This document shows positions 8,464 to 39,850 of a DNA stretch of 64,000 nucleotides, piece after piece (the stretch's first letter is position 1; every line of letters starts with the position of its first letter). The position numbers and the translations under genes are program-made. The notes under the pieces were generated by a model. That model made no database searches, had not been told where the DNA came from, and worked only from the letters and a program-made list of their open reading frames with translations. The stretch covers positions 1 to 64,000 of the forward strand of contig CAJAQB010000019.1 of assembly GCA_903943975.1 (NCBI GenBank). The letters run 5' to 3'. The stretch is from Synechococcus lacustris (lineage in GTDB: Bacteria; Cyanobacteriota; Cyanobacteriia; PCC-6307; Cyanobiaceae).

Positions 8464-8643
8464 TGATCTGTTTCCCTGTCAGCAGGTTTGTCGCCAGTTA
8501 AGCAACCGAATGCTGGCAAAACCAGCTGCGGCCAATGCTTTTCAAGCGACTTATAGCTTAATGGAAATTCTTCGATTTTTCCCAGGGTCGCCAGCGGCGG
8601 GGGCAGGTCTCCGGCTGGACCAAGCCCCATCACTGGCAATCGC

Positions 8644-9318
8644 TCAGCGGCGGCCGGTGTGTAGTCCCACCACCCGCGCCACAATCACCACAATAAAAAG
8701 CTGGCTGAAGAAGGCCTGGAAATAGAAAATCATCTGGCTCCACCCGTCCTTGAGGCCGATCACCGTGCCGGCCGTGGTCGAGCCCCCCAGGCTTAGGAAC
8801 ATCAACTGGGCATGGTTTGGGATCGTGGTGTCGAAGCCGTAGGCCGTTGGGTTTAGGTAGAAGTTGAGGGAGTGCAGTTCAAAGCCCAGCACCGTGAGGT
8901 TGGCGTAGCAGATGATCACCCCAAAGAGCAGATCGGCATCCACCTCTTTTGTATGCCAGATGTTGTAGGTAAAACGCCAGAGCACCACCGCGGTGATCAC
9001 TGCCACGGCGCCGTAGCAAAACAGCCCTAGCAGCGAGCCCATGGGGCCGCCATGGCTCAGGTTGAACACCGCCCAGGCCAGGCAGAGCCAGAGAAATAGC
9101 ACCGCCTGGCGTCGCAGCCAGCTTTCCGATTCGCCGCTGAGCCGCAGCCCCAGCAGCAGGGTGAAATACATGATCGGTGCCAGCACCAGATACCTCAGCA
9201 GCCGCGCCCCCAGGCCCAGCGGTTCTGGCAATAGGGGAATTAGCAGCAGTTCCAGCATCTGCACCAGGGCCAGGTCGTGGAAGCGCAGCTGCAAAAACCA
9301 GCGACTAAGACTTTTCAT
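8644..9318 (-). CDS. Ion-channel-like membrane protein with altered selectivity filter
   Basis: A 224-aa integral membrane protein with about six hydrophobic segments. The C-terminal part aligns by eye with cyanobacterial two-TM potassium channels (Ion_trans_2): KEVDADLLFGVIICYANL corresponds to the pre-pore helix region, and QAFFSQLFIVVIVARVVGLH to the last helix. Between them the expected TxGYGD filter is missing and SLGGSTTAGTVIG (residues 176-188) stands in its place. It is therefore either a channel of another selectivity or a non-conducting relative. It lies between nadA and the exported unknown, all on the minus strand. Confidence 0.65.
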   Translation of the reverse strand: MKSLSRWFLQLRFHDLALVQMLELLLIPLLPEPLGLGARLLRYLVLAPIMYFTLLLGLRLSGESESWLRRQAVLFLWLCLAWAVFNLSHGGPMGSLLGLFCYGAVAVITAVVLWRFTYNIWHTKEVDADLLFGVIICYANLTVLGFELHSLNFYLNPTAYGFDTTIPNHAQLMFLSLGGSTTAGTVIGLKDGWSQMIFYFQAFFSQLFIVVIVARVVGLHTGRR

Positions 9319-9336
9319 CGCAGAGCTGGCCCCTGA

Positions 9337-10290
9337 TTAGTGGCTGAGGTCCAGCATCCGCTGGATTGGGGCCAGGGCCCGTTGGCGTAGCCCCTCCTCC
9401 AGTTGGATCTCTGGGGCCAGCTCCCGCAGGCAGCTTTCCAGTTTGTCGAGGCTGTTGAGCCTCATATAAGGGCAGGCGTTGCAACTGCAGCCATCCAGCC
9501 CCGGCACCGGGTGGAAGCTTTTACCTGGGGCGGCCTTGCGCATTTGATGCAAGATCCCCGGTTCCGTGAGCACGATGAAGGCCTGGGCCTTACTGCTGAG
9601 GCTATGGGCCAGCAGCTTGCTGGTGGAACCGATGAAGTCGGCATGGTCTAGCAGCAGGTCTTCGCATTCCGGGTGGGCGATTACCTCCGCCTCCGGATGG
9701 GCCAGTTTCAATTCGAGCAAGGCCTGTTCGCTGAAGGTTTCGTGCACGATGCAGCTGCCGGGCCAAAGGCTCAGTTCCCGGCCCAGCTGTTGTTGCACCC
9801 AGCGGCCGAGGTTTTTGTCGGGGGCAAACAAGACCGGTCGATCGGCCGGAATCTGACCCACCAATTGCACTGCATTGCTACTGGTGCAGATCAGATCACT
9901 CTGGGCCTTGATTGCCGCTGAACAATTGATGTAGCTCACCACGTAGTGGTTTGGATGGGCGGCACGGAAGGCGGCAAACGCCTCCGGTTGGCAGGAATCA
10001 GCCAGGGAACAGCCCGCTTCTAGGTCGGGCAGCAGCACCGTTTTTTCCGGGCAGAGGATCTTCGCGGTTTCGGCCATGAAATGGACGCCGCAAAAAACGA
10101 TCACCTCGGCATCGGTGCTGGCGGCCCGGCGGGCCAGCTCCAGGGAATCACCGATGAAATCGGCCACATCCTGGATGGCGTCGTCTTGGTAGTAATGGGC
10201 AAGGATCACTGCCCGGCGCTCCTGGCGCAGCTGCTGGATGCGTTCCAGCTGATCCCTGGGGCTCGGGGGTGGGGCGAGGCTGGCGAACAC
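9337..10290 (-). CDS. nadA: Quinolinate synthase (NadA)
   Basis: Condenses iminoaspartate with dihydroxyacetone phosphate to quinolinate in NAD synthesis, using a [4Fe-4S] cluster. The protein of about 317 aa shows the substrate-binding start [20 protein letters not shown] and the cysteine-bearing motifs [35 protein letters not shown] and [10 protein letters not shown]. The frame stays open far upstream without family similarity, and antisense to the next gene; the GTG at 10290 is the last start before the conserved region and was chosen. No nadB or nadC is in the window. Confidence 0.95.
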
Positions 10291-35174: not shown

Positions 35175-35537
35175 CTAATCATCGTCCAGCAAAGGCTTTC
35201 TCGCCACAGCCCGTAAGACTTGTTCACCGCTGGCGGGGGCCTCGGCCGGCGCCTTTGCTGGCACTGCAAAGCCCAGCAGCAACACGAGGTTGCTGAGGCT
35301 GAGGAAGGCCTCGGCACCGCCATGGAGCCAGTCCACATTCGCCAGTTCCGCCCCGTAGCGCTGTTGGGCCACCAGGGCGGCGCCAATGGTGATCAGCACA
35401 AAAAGCAGGGTCAAGCCAAAACCCCAGAGGGCCAGGACAGGAAAACGACCGCTGCGTTTTGCCCACCAAAGGAATAAGAGATAAGGAAAAAGTGAGACTG
35501 CAAACAAGGGAGCAGCTGGATCATTGGCAATGCTCAT
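35175..35537 (-). CDS. DUF3593 membrane protein
   Basis: A 120-aa protein with three hydrophobic segments (LFAVSLFPYLLFLWW, VLALWGFGLTLLFVLITIGAALV, AFLSLSNLVLLLGFAVP) and an acidic C-terminus. The AVSLFPYLLFLWWAK start and the WLHGGAEAFLSLSNL segment match DUF3593, a family of photosynthetic organisms without known role. Its start overlaps the DUF2499 stop by 4 bp; these two families are commonly neighbours. Confidence 0.8.
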   Translation of the reverse strand: MSIANDPAAPLFAVSLFPYLLFLWWAKRSGRFPVLALWGFGLTLLFVLITIGAALVAQQRYGAELANVDWLHGGAEAFLSLSNLVLLLGFAVPAKAPAEAPASGEQVLRAVARKPLLDDD

Positions 35538-35842
35538 CGGCTTGATGGCTGCGCTGCCGTGCGCCAGATCTGCCAGGCGGCCGCCGCCAGGCAGCAGTTG
35601 CCCCCCAGGGTGAGGCTGGCCTGCACGGTCACCAGCCAGTGCAGTTGCGGGTCGTTGTCATAGAGGTGCCAGGTGCAGGCACAGAGGGCGCTGGCCAGGG
35701 CAGGGGCCATCGCCAGGGCCAGCCAGCGCCACTGGCCTTCGCCCCGCCGTTCCCCCCAGAGCAGCACTGCCCCCATGGCCAGAACCCATTCCAGCACTGA
35801 ACTGATGTGGATTACCCAGGTGTGGAAGGAAAGGGCGTGCAT
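35534..35842 (-). CDS. DUF2499 (Ycf49-like) membrane protein
   Basis: A 102-aa membrane protein with about three helices. MHALSFHTWVIHISSVLEWVLAM and CACTWHLYDNDPQLHWLV are typical of DUF2499, related to plastid Ycf49. Function unknown. First gene of a translationally coupled pair with the DUF3593 gene, upstream of psaK on the same strand, which hints at a photosynthetic role. It is divergent from the LuxR-type regulator gene, 72 bp away. Confidence 0.82.
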   Translation of the reverse strand: MHALSFHTWVIHISSVLEWVLAMGAVLLWGERRGEGQWRWLALAMAPALASALCACTWHLYDNDPQLHWLVTVQASLTLGGNCCLAAAAWQIWRTAAQPSSR

Positions 35843-35914
35843 CGCTTAAACGGGGACCCGCTGAAGGTACTGCCCCTGGGGGCGTCAGCCCTGGTTTTGG
35901 CTTAGGGTTGGCCC

Positions 35915-36610
35915 ATGGAAATCAGGTTAGACGCTGAATTTCGCCAGCGGGCCATTGAACTAGCGCAATTAAGTTTGCCATTTCGTTTCCTTATTTGCAC
36001 TAATAATCGCGCCTACGCCCTAGCGCTTGCCACGCATTTTGCCATAGATTCCCTGGTGGATTCCGAGCGGCTGGTGGGTATTTGCACCACCCAAGCCGAA
36101 GCACTTAATCATGTTAGTGAGTTTGGTTCAGACCTGCTGGTTATGGTTAGTGAATTGCTTGATGATGGTTCTGGGGTGGAGCTGATAGGAAAATTACGCC
36201 AATGTCAAGACCCCCCCCTTACGCTGCTAAACCTCAAGTCCACCAGGCGCCAGTCGATTCGTGAAGCCATTGACAGTGGTGCTGATGCGATCCTCACCTA
36301 TGCCGGCATGGGGCCGGCGTTACTAAACCAAGCCCTTGGGGCAATCCAGCAGAAGCAACGATTTATTGATCCGATCTGCCTGCATCTCTTGGAAACTGAG
36401 AAAAGTGAATTAACAGTTGAGCTAACCGCCAGGGAGGTGGAAATTCTGCGCTTAGTAACCCAGGGCATGACCAACCGAGAGATTAGTGCGCGGCTATACA
36501 TTGCCGAAACCACGGCCCGGGGCCATGTGCAATCAATTATTCAAAAACTGCAGGTACGCGATCGCACCTCTGCCGCTGCTGAGGGCCTACGCCAGGGGTA
36601 CGTGCAATAA
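35915..36610 (+). CDS. LuxR/NarL-type regulator with degenerate receiver
   Basis: A 231-aa regulator. The C-terminal HTH (about 167-229, LTAREVEILRLVTQGMTNRE then VQSIIQKLQVRDRTSA) is a clear LuxR/GerE DNA-binding domain. The N-terminal part (about 22-150) has receiver-like strands, but the expected phospho-acceptor Asp aligns with Ser79 in DLLVMVSELLDDGSG, so control by phosphorylation is doubtful. Codon use and base composition are more A+T-rich than in flanking genes, as in the chitinase gene 71 bp downstream. A role in controlling that chitinase is plausible but inferred from position only. Confidence 0.82.
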   Translation: MEIRLDAEFRQRAIELAQLSLPFRFLICTNNRAYALALATHFAIDSLVDSERLVGICTTQAEALNHVSEFGSDLLVMVSELLDDGSGVELIGKLRQCQDPPLTLLNLKSTRRQSIREAIDSGADAILTYAGMGPALLNQALGAIQQKQRFIDPICLHLLETEKSELTVELTAREVEILRLVTQGMTNREISARLYIAETTARGHVQSIIQKLQVRDRTSAAAEGLRQGYVQ

Positions 36611-36681
36611 AACCCTACAGGTGAAGGGTGTCAGAATCTCCTGCGATCGGCAATGCTGAAGCTGTTCATAATTCAGAGTAA

Positions 36682-38559
36682 ATGACAGCAGCTACGTCAA
36701 CTTCCCTCAGTCTTGCTGTGGATGGCAATCTCTATTGGGGTGGCCTTGGCGGTGAGTTCACCCTTACAAATAACAGCGATACGGCCAGCGAGGCTTGGAG
36801 CTTTAGCTTCGTGACCCGGGTTAAGGATTTTAAAGGCTGGAGCATGGCCACTACCATCACGGAAAATAGTGATGGCAGCTACTTGGTAAGCCTGGCTAAT
36901 GCCGCCTGGAATGGCAGTTTGGCCCCAGGCCAAAGCATCAAGCTCAGCTTTAATGCCACTAGTCCTGAAGGTTTTGCCAACAGCGGTCAGCTGCTGGCTG
37001 AGCAGTTGTTCATTGGCGGCCCCAGCCTGGCGCTAACAAGTTCAGTTCCGGTGTTGCCCAATCCAGTAATTCCCAATCCAGTAATTCCCAATCCAGTGGT
37101 ACCGATACCGGTGCTGCCAACACCTGTTGTTGAAAATCCCGTTACTCCCACCCCTGGGCTGCCAGTTGTATTAAATAAACTAAATAGCGATTCGGGCGCA
37201 AATTCAGGTAATCCCGGCGATGCCCTCTGGGGTGAGCAGTTTTTTGCTTCCTATGTGGATATGACCCTATATCCCACCCCAGACCTGGCGGGCCTTGCCC
37301 AAAAGACAGGCCATGGAATATTTACTCTGGCATTCCTTCAGGCCACAGCAAATGGTGAATTGGCCTGGGCTGGTATTCCGGCCCTCGCACCTAATAGCAG
37401 CAATGACCAGGCTGTGGCAATTAATAAATCCATTGAGCAACTGCGGGCCATTGGTGGGGATGTAATGATCTCCCTGGGTGGGGCAAATGGCACCAGTTTG
37501 GCGCAATTATTTGCCCAGCAAGGTCACAGCGCCCAGGAATTGGCCACAGCCTATGCAAAGGTTGTTGATCGATATCAGTTAAATCGGCTTGATTTTGATA
37601 TTGAAGGCTCTGCAATTGCCGATACAAAAGCTAATGCCCTGAATAGTCAAGCCTTGGCGATTTTGCAGAATAGCAATCCTGAGCTAGAGGTTTGGTTCAC
37701 CCTGCCTGTTTTGCCCCAGGGGCTCACCCACGAAGGTATTGATGTTGTAAATACTGCCCTGGCAGCGGGGGTAGACCTTGATGGTATTAATTTAATGGCG
37801 ATGGATTATGGCGATAATGCCGCCCCGCCGCAATTGAAATCCATGGGGGCCTATGCCATTGATGCTGCGAATAATAGTTTCAGTCAGCTACATAAACTCT
37901 ATGGTAACTATGCGGCTGATTTCCAGTGGAAGCAGTTGGGCATTACGCCAATGATTGGGGTAAATGACTGCACTTCCGAAATTTTCACCCCAGCAGATGC
38001 CACTGCCCTTAAGCAGTTTGCCAGTGAGAAAGGCTTGGGAATGTTGTCGATGTGGTCGATAGCCCGTGACAATCCGGGTGTTGTGGGACAAGTGACTGCC
38101 ACCAGTTCAGGATTAGCAGATCCAGCCGGAAGTTTTAACAGCGTATTTGCTGGCTATGGCACCCAGGCAAATCTGCTGCTTGATCCGATTATCAATCCCA
38201 ATCCCAGCACTAATCCAAACTCTAATACCAGCCCAGGCCAAGGCAGCTCTGGACCATTTCCAAACACACTGATATCGGTAGCAGCCACAGATCATCTCTT
38301 GACCGCAAATTCTGCAACAGCAGAAACCTTTGCACTTTCCTATGCCTGGGGTCGCCAACTCACCATCGAGAACTTTGACCCAACCAAGGATGTTTTAGAT
38401 CTAAAGAACTTCTGGCAGGAGGGTCAACAGGCCAAGCTGGTGAGCCTGGGGAGCAACGGTAGCAAGCTGGAATTAGATTTCAACAATCAGCAGGTTTACC
38501 TGCCTGGGGTTTCTGCTGATGCTTTCACTCCAGCTGTGCTGCAGATCTGGAAGGGATGA
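36682..38559 (+). CDS. CBM2-GH18 chitinase-like protein
   Basis: A 625-aa multi-domain protein. Residues about 8-112 form a family 2 carbohydrate-binding module (WGGLGGEFTLTNNSD, conserved Trp at 39, 53 and 76, NGSLAPGQSIKLSFNA). A Pro-rich linker (123-163) follows. The GH18 barrel (about 183-490) has SLGGANG (SxGG) and the active-site strand LDFDIEG with Glu308 as likely acid. A second Asn/Ser/Pro linker leads to a C-terminal domain (about 530-625). No N-terminal signal peptide is present; the C-terminal domain may carry type I-like export information. Chitin use has been reported for marine picocyanobacteria. The composition is A+T-rich relative to neighbours. Confidence 0.85.
   Translation: MTAATSTSLSLAVDGNLYWGGLGGEFTLTNNSDTASEAWSFSFVTRVKDFKGWSMATTITENSDGSYLVSLANAAWNGSLAPGQSIKLSFNATSPEGFANSGQLLAEQLFIGGPSLALTSSVPVLPNPVIPNPVIPNPVVPIPVLPTPVVENPVTPTPGLPVVLNKLNSDSGANSGNPGDALWGEQFFASYVDMTLYPTPDLAGLAQKTGHGIFTLAFLQATANGELAWAGIPALAPNSSNDQAVAINKSIEQLRAIGGDVMISLGGANGTSLAQLFAQQGHSAQELATAYAKVVDRYQLNRLDFDIEGSAIADTKANALNSQALAILQNSNPELEVWFTLPVLPQGLTHEGIDVVNTALAAGVDLDGINLMAMDYGDNAAPPQLKSMGAYAIDAANNSFSQLHKLYGNYAADFQWKQLGITPMIGVNDCTSEIFTPADATALKQFASEKGLGMLSMWSIARDNPGVVGQVTATSSGLADPAGSFNSVFAGYGTQANLLLDPIINPNPSTNPNSNTSPGQGSSGPFPNTLISVAATDHLLTANSATAETFALSYAWGRQLTIENFDPTKDVLDLKNFWQEGQQAKLVSLGSNGSKLELDFNNQQVYLPGVSADAFTPAVLQIWKG
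37057..37101. repeat. 15-bp linker repeat in the chitinase gene
   Basis: Two identical units cccaatccagtaatt and a third variant (ending gtggta) follow each other in frame and encode the P-N-P-V-(I/V) repeat of the first linker. Such repeats can change linker length by slippage. Confidence 0.85.
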
Positions 38560-38581
38560 AGCTAGGGTGAGCCGAAAGGCC

Positions 38582-38604
38582 GTTGGCAGTTGAACTCTGC
38601 CAAC
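38582..38604 (+). terminator. Perfect hairpin after the chitinase gene
   Basis: GTTGGCAG (38582-38589) and CTGCCAAC (38597-38604) form a perfect 8-bp stem with a 7-nt loop, 23 bases after the chitinase stop. There is no T-run, so it may stabilise the 3' end rather than end transcription. The rest of the spacer up to 38750 shows nothing recognisable. Confidence 0.5.
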
Positions 38605-38749
38605 TGGTCTGGGGCTGAAGATTGCTTGGATCGCCTAAAGAGCATCAATTAAGCCAAGCCAGTGATCTGGTTTGGGCTGCCCCAGGGGTCGGAAAGGGAG
38701 CAATGAATTAGCCGCTGGCGGGATCCAGCCTATAGCTTGATAATGTTCA

Positions 38750-39850
38750 GTGGCTTGCTGTACTCCGGTGCAGTCACCCCCTGCATCGCCCTTGAAAATT
38801 CTGATCTGCGGCTACTACGGCGAGCACAACCTGGGTGATGACGCCCTGCTGCAGTGCCTGCTCCAGGAGCTACCCAAGGGTTGGCAGCCCCTGGTGACCG
38901 CCGCCGACCAGGAACTGGTTCAAAAGCGCTTCAAAGTGGCCAGTTGTGATCGCCGCAGTTTGTCGGCCACCCTTAGGGCCCTGGGGCAATCTGCTGCCCT
39001 GGTCTTGGGCGGTGGCAGCCTGCTGCAGGACAGCACCAGTTTCAAGAGCCTGCTTTATTACGCAGCGCTGATCCTGGCGGCCAAGCTCCAAGCCAAGCCG
39101 ATCTTGCTCTGGGGCCAGGGGCTGGGGCCCCTACGGCGGCGGCGCAGTCGTGCCCTGGTGCGGTTGCTATTACCCCTGGTGACGGCCGCCAGCTGGCGGG
39201 ATCCAGAATCTGCCGGGCTGGCGGCCCAGCTGGGCCGAGGCACCGCCAGCGCTGACCTGCTCGGCACTGATCCGGTTTGGCGTTTCCCAGCCCAGCATTG
39301 GCGGGGCCTAGGCGGGCCAATCGTGCTGGCCTGGCGGCCCACGCCGCTGCTAAATGACGACGGCTGGCGGCGGCTGCTGGCGGCGCTGCAGCAATTGGCG
39401 GAAGAGCAACAAAGAGAAGTGCTTTGGTTGCCTTTCCATCGTCACCAAGATCGCGGTTTATTGGCGGGATTGGCGGCCCAGGGCCTATTGCCAACGGGCT
39501 TGGCTGAGCGCTCCCGGGAGTTGCAACCGGAACGGCCGGAGGAGGCCATGGCGGTGGCCAGTGGGGCCGGGCTCCTGGTGGCGATGCGGCTCCATGCCCT
39601 GATCCTCGGCGCCCTCAGTGGCGCCCCCTGCGCGGCCCTCAGCTACGACCCCAAGGTGGCGGCGGCGGCGGCGGGCCTTGGCTGCAGTTGCCATGACCTG
39701 CGCCAGCTCCCCAGCCAGCAGCTCTTGGTGCAGCAATGGAGCGCCCAGCTCGATAAGCCCTTGGCCCAGGCGGCTGTGCAGCGCCAGGTGGACGCGGCGG
39801 CGGTGCATCAACTGTTGTTGGCGCGGTCGTTGCCTGGTTCTACCCCTTGA
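38750..39850 (+). CDS. csaB: CsaB-type polysaccharide pyruvyl transferase
   Basis: A 366-aa member of the polysaccharide pyruvyl transferase family; CsaB adds pyruvate to wall-linked polysaccharide that anchors surface-layer proteins. Family marks: ILICGYYGEHNLGDDALLQ, LVLGGGSLLQDSTS, ILLWGQGLGPL, and the C-terminal VAMRLHALILGALSG. The GTG at 38750 is the first usable start; GTG 38768 or TTG 38792 are alternatives, since similarity starts near residue 16. It overlaps the peroxiredoxin gene antisense by 43 bp. Confidence 0.85.
   Translation: MACCTPVQSPPASPLKILICGYYGEHNLGDDALLQCLLQELPKGWQPLVTAADQELVQKRFKVASCDRRSLSATLRALGQSAALVLGGGSLLQDSTSFKSLLYYAALILAAKLQAKPILLWGQGLGPLRRRRSRALVRLLLPLVTAASWRDPESAGLAAQLGRGTASADLLGTDPVWRFPAQHWRGLGGPIVLAWRPTPLLNDDGWRRLLAALQQLAEEQQREVLWLPFHRHQDRGLLAGLAAQGLLPTGLAERSRELQPERPEEAMAVASGAGLLVAMRLHALILGALSGAPCAALSYDPKVAAAAAGLGCSCHDLRQLPSQQLLVQQWSAQLDKPLAQAAVQRQVDAAAVHQLLLARSLPGSTP

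Follow-up and report, generated by a model that had tools for sequence, protein, structure and literature searches.

A window of 64,000 nucleotides, the whole stretch of Synechococcus lacustris DNA that was analyzed, contains a chitinase gene preceded on the same strand, at a distance of 71 bp, by a gene for a LuxR-type regulator. The two genes lie between neighbors which we take, from our own reading of their sequences, to be DUF2499 and csaB. The features of this region are listed below.

35534-35842, reverse strand: DUF2499, left flank of the insertion
35843-38749, no strand assigned: two-gene insertion (regulator and chitinase) between DUF2499 and csaB
35915-36610, forward strand: LuxR/NarL-type regulator (Pfam PF00196, 57.5 bits), GerE helix-turn-helix at residues 170-221
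36682-38559, forward strand: CBM2-GH18-CTD chitinase gene, 625 aa, without signal peptide
36736-36975, forward strand: CBM2 domain, residues 19-98 (Pfam CBM_2)
37036-37197, forward strand: linker 1, an imperfect 15-nt/5-aa Pro-rich repeat (NPVIP), disordered in the model
37231-38157, forward strand: GH18 catalytic domain, residues 184-492 (phmmer to 9buf and 2dsk)
38170-38256, forward strand: linker 2, Asn/Pro/Ser-rich
38257-38556, forward strand: C-terminal domain (CTD), an RTX-tail-like beta module without GGxGxDxxx repeats (profile, structure model, hhalign)
38750-39850, forward strand: csaB, right flank of the insertion

The exact boundaries of the chitinase reading frame were confirmed, and its product consists of a CBM2 domain, a GH18 domain, and a CTD of about 100 residues, with two disordered linkers between them. 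The CBM_2 profile scores above its cut-off (30.5 bits versus 24), and the domain weakly matches the solved ChiC domain 2rtt (phmmer, E 1.3e-4). In the AlphaFold model, built with eight orthologues (mean pLDDT 64.3), three parts are folded and the two linkers have low confidence, with pLDDT values below 50 at 109-187 and 491-526. The three-part architecture with two linkers proposed in the initial annotation is thus borne out by Pfam, phmmer, and AlphaFold.

The absence of a signal peptide, also reported in that annotation, holds as well. The in-frame codon immediately 5' of the ATG is a stop (TAA, 36679-36681), so that an upstream N-terminal extension is impossible, and a crude test of hydropathy (not SignalP) detects neither a charged n-region nor a strong hydrophobic core at the N-terminus. 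In the orthologues, too, the protein starts straight in CBM2. A signal-less picocyanobacterial chitinase is already published and is not new in itself: marine Synechococcus chitinases, which combine carbohydrate-binding domains with a C-terminal chitinase domain, lack a signal peptide, are predicted to undergo non-classical secretion, and are present and abundant in exoproteomes (PMC4949707), and the spent medium of strain WH7803 depends for its chitinase activity on ChiA, which has two CBM2 and one GH18 (PMC10651935). Few members of sub-cluster 5.2 have a chitinase (7%, PMC11851481). The present genome encodes a second signal-less chitinase (L036, G000:C16, 9993-13259), a 1088-aa GH18-CBM2-CBM2-GH9 protein, that is, a chitinase fused to a family 9 (cellulase-type) hydrolase, which has no CTD.

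The CTD is the novel element: it is related to the tails of RTX type I substrates but lacks their repeats. Neither Pfam nor NCBIfam has a family for these ~100 C-terminal residues of the chitinase. A profile built from eight copies of the domain aligns with the RTX tail of a haem peroxidase of the same genome with an hhalign probability of 96% over 77 columns reaching the C-terminal end; the score is 51.6, whereas none of 100 column shuffles exceeded 21.0 and a CBM2 control reached 17.0. For its part, the tail of the peroxidase has matches in the type I lipase MIS38 (E 4.3e-11) and in alkaline protease/serralysins. This animal-type haem peroxidase (L038, G000:C8, 3993-5981), with an RTX repeat and a type I tail, is likely a canonical type I substrate of this genome. 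The structure model of the CTD (pLDDT 88.5) has the AlgE6 R-module as its best Foldseek match in the PDB, with the MIS38 lipase (TMq 0.67) and serralysins prominent, at modest E-values (best 5.7e-3, none below 0.001) and with CylK and S-adenosylhomocysteinase also among the matches. Compared directly with PDB sequences, the CTD profile retrieves only a serralysin-type protease C, weakly (E 0.22).

The CTD thus resembles these RTX tails in fold and is tied to them by homology through the peroxidase tail; nevertheless, it differs from them in two respects. GGxGxDxxx nonapeptide repeats are absent from all eight CTDs, and so is, in the chitinase, the [FLI][VAI] pair reported at the last two positions of type I substrates (PMC8861453): the chitinase ends in KG and its relatives mostly in QG, GV, or GG, L066 being an exception. 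From sequence and modeled fold, we read the CTD as an RTX tail that has probably lost its repeats.

Of 400 family genomes sampled, 16 contain strong matches to the CTD profile and a few others weaker ones. A scan of 84,980 species genomes with one short pattern, which distant relatives could escape, found 11 loci, 10 of them in records whose titles name cyanobacteria. The culturable Cyanobium sp. Cruz-8D1 and Synechococcus sp. HJ21-Hayes are among the strains with a CTD. The remaining locus (L061, CALPNT020000064.1) is a CTD chitinase fragment in a record titled Bifidobacterium breve MAG, and its resemblance to L062 points to a bin that is mixed or wrongly labelled; the CTD is so far found only in picocyanobacteria. 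Wherever it was read, the CTD lies at the extreme C-terminus, and this on three kinds of protein: the present chitinase family, ChiD-type GH18 enzymes with CBM2 (L063, L065, L066), and two RTX proteins of genome G023. All of these proteins are acidic (pI 4.05-5.16) and contain zero to two cysteines. The ChiD-type enzymes share CBM2 and the same C-terminal CTD with the chitinase, and two of them (L063, L065) also a linked LuxR regulator, but their GH18 belongs to another subfamily and is placed first. ChiA-type chitinases and one GH9 enzyme (L012, L114, L115, L116, L066, L026) contain, N-terminally or internally, a beta module in two parts that is related to the CTD; no Pfam family is named for it in L114 and L066.

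The genome contains the parts of a type I secretion system, namely ABC/HlyD pairs and TolC-family proteins. On contig C3, a type I HlyD that exceeds its cut-off (338 bits) adjoins an LssB-like ATPase, and three further HlyB-like transporters of about 1000 aa are encoded on C20, C9, and C11. The chitinase gene is not adjacent to any exporter genes. The HlyB-like transporters, which score just under the curated cut-off, were found in all 11 genomes tested and therefore do not single out the CTD genomes. Genomes with a CTD have the type I HlyD family more often than chance would predict (6 of 16 versus 1.5 expected, hypergeometric p 0.0017, uncorrected for relatedness). Above the cut-off, HlyD is missing from the other 10, and the linkage between HlyD and CTD is an enrichment only, not a rule. 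Taken together, the best-supported reading, which we consider fairly probable, is that of a secreted chitin-binding chitinase which would be exported by type I secretion through its CTD. The initial annotation had offered the C-terminal domain as a type I-like export signal or a surface anchor; homology, fold, and distribution support the former, export itself being what we infer, and nothing directly supports the latter.

The CTD might instead be a folding, assembly, or cell-surface module, with all picocyanobacterial CBM2 enzymes leaving the cell by another route that needs no C-terminal tail. The comparison with marine ChiA (WH7803_2068; PMC10651935, PMC4949707) bears on this possibility. 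Like the present chitinase, ChiA combines CBM2, in two copies, with GH18 and lacks a signal peptide, and in G024 a ChiA-type relative is immediately preceded by a related LuxR regulator and contains relatives of the CTD module. In contrast to the chitinase, however, the ChiA-type enzymes examined belong to another GH18 subfamily (DFDWE motif in L114) and end in GH18, with the two relatives of the CTD module lying N-terminally and none C-terminally. Marine ChiA is nonetheless secreted (PMC4949707), so the module is not necessarily a signal that acts from the C-terminus. The GH18-GH9 protein of the same genome, which does without a CTD, and the absence of the terminal type I motif point in the same direction. 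On the other hand, the strict C-terminal placement of the CTD on three unrelated kinds of protein, one of which is RTX proteins, and its homology to the tails of known type I substrates argue against such a role, which we regard as unlikely, although it deserves some weight.

It is improbable that the chitinase is freed only by lysis or in vesicles, or works inside the cell, the missing signal peptide then meaning just that. A Pro-rich linker or a CBM2 is indeed no proof of export, but CBM2 together with GH18 designates insoluble chitin as the expected substrate, signal-less CBM2 and GH18 relatives are abundant in exoproteomes (PMC4949707), and WH7803 requires ChiA for the chitinase activity of its spent medium (PMC10651935).

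In the catalytic domain, the Pfam Glyco_hydro_18 profile covers residues 217-379 (31.3 bits versus a cut-off of 29.6), and phmmer widens the domain to residues 184-492, with matches to PDB entries 9buf, named 'Exochitinase 1' (E 5.8e-67), and 2dsk (E 3.2e-45), which we take to be a Pyrococcus furiosus chitinase. The residues of the DxDxE motif (D304, D306, E308) and their partners Y376 and W458 are present and invariant in the eight orthologues. The initial annotation had drawn attention to an Arg in place of the usual Gly in the strand LNR-LDFDIE. The substitution (Arg302) is real, but comparison across the subfamily, made up of relatives of 9buf and 2dsk, led us to reject it as an anomaly: the position is occupied by Arg, Lys, or Ala in all eight orthologues, by Lys in the second chitinase of this genome, and, in the two solved chitinases, by Lys in 9buf and by Tyr in 2dsk. 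The structures 9buf and 2dsk/3a4w are alike to the chitinase over the whole catalytic domain, in the DFDIE motif, and in the non-Gly residue at this position; they are matched over the catalytic domain only and have no counterpart of the CTD. That Arg302, by departing from the common Gly, inactivates GH18 and leaves a chitin-binding adhesin is very improbable, given the residues found at this position in all subfamily relatives and the intact D304, D306, E308, Y376, and W458. Judging from these residues, the GH18 domain is expected to be active.

The regulator and the chitinase form an insertion: three congeners as well as G024, G147, and G054 have DUF2499 and csaB side by side, and the regulator-chitinase pair sits elsewhere in other genomes. 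The closest such pair elsewhere (L047, G069, 8493-9436) has a LuxR about 60% identical and a broken chitinase frame. In 15 genomes, 24 matches to the LuxR regulator were found. The best of them are immediately followed by a CBM2, ChiD-type, or CTD-bearing gene, among these the ChiA of G024 and the CBM2-GH9 of G054, and this holds for most genomes that have a homologue; in G023, a transposase-like ORF comes first after the regulator. The weaker matches are mostly next to unrelated genes, and in G032 and G074 the chitinase is present with no regulator nearby. The region yielded no promoter-like site, and its repeat scan no long repeats that would convincingly flank the insertion; an imperfect 30-nt inverted pair (77%) extends over 35921-38741 but has its left arm inside the LuxR gene. 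A viral origin was considered and set aside, one scan of viral contigs having returned just three distant GH18 relatives (25-37% identity).

Under the type I reading, the protein would be an extracellular, chitin-binding GH18 chitinase, most likely an exo-type enzyme or chitobiosidase, which a type I secretion system would carry out of the cell in a single step, with no signal peptide involved. The CTD, a beta module presumably derived from an RTX tail with loss of the calcium-binding nonapeptides, would carry the export signal, CBM2 would keep the enzyme on chitin, and the linkers would allow the catalytic domain to move. The LuxR-type regulator probably controls transcription of the gene, and the two genes together would constitute a horizontally moving cassette. 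More tentatively, we propose as a possibility that picocyanobacteria use the repeat-less RTX tail to mark enzymes for export, a portable tag that at least two unrelated types of chitinase would have acquired. These enzymes would mostly move together with a LuxR-type regulator of their own, in a small mobile cassette, and the whole would amount to a lineage-specific, regulated, type I-exported chitin-degrading system.

The exit of picocyanobacterial chitinases has been recorded only as 'non-classical' (PMC4949707), and a module homologous to type I tails makes this question directly testable. Being recognizable, the CTD can also serve as a marker in the search for further exoproteins of these abundant phototrophs, and the linked regulator offers a handle on the timing of their switch to a particle-degrading life.
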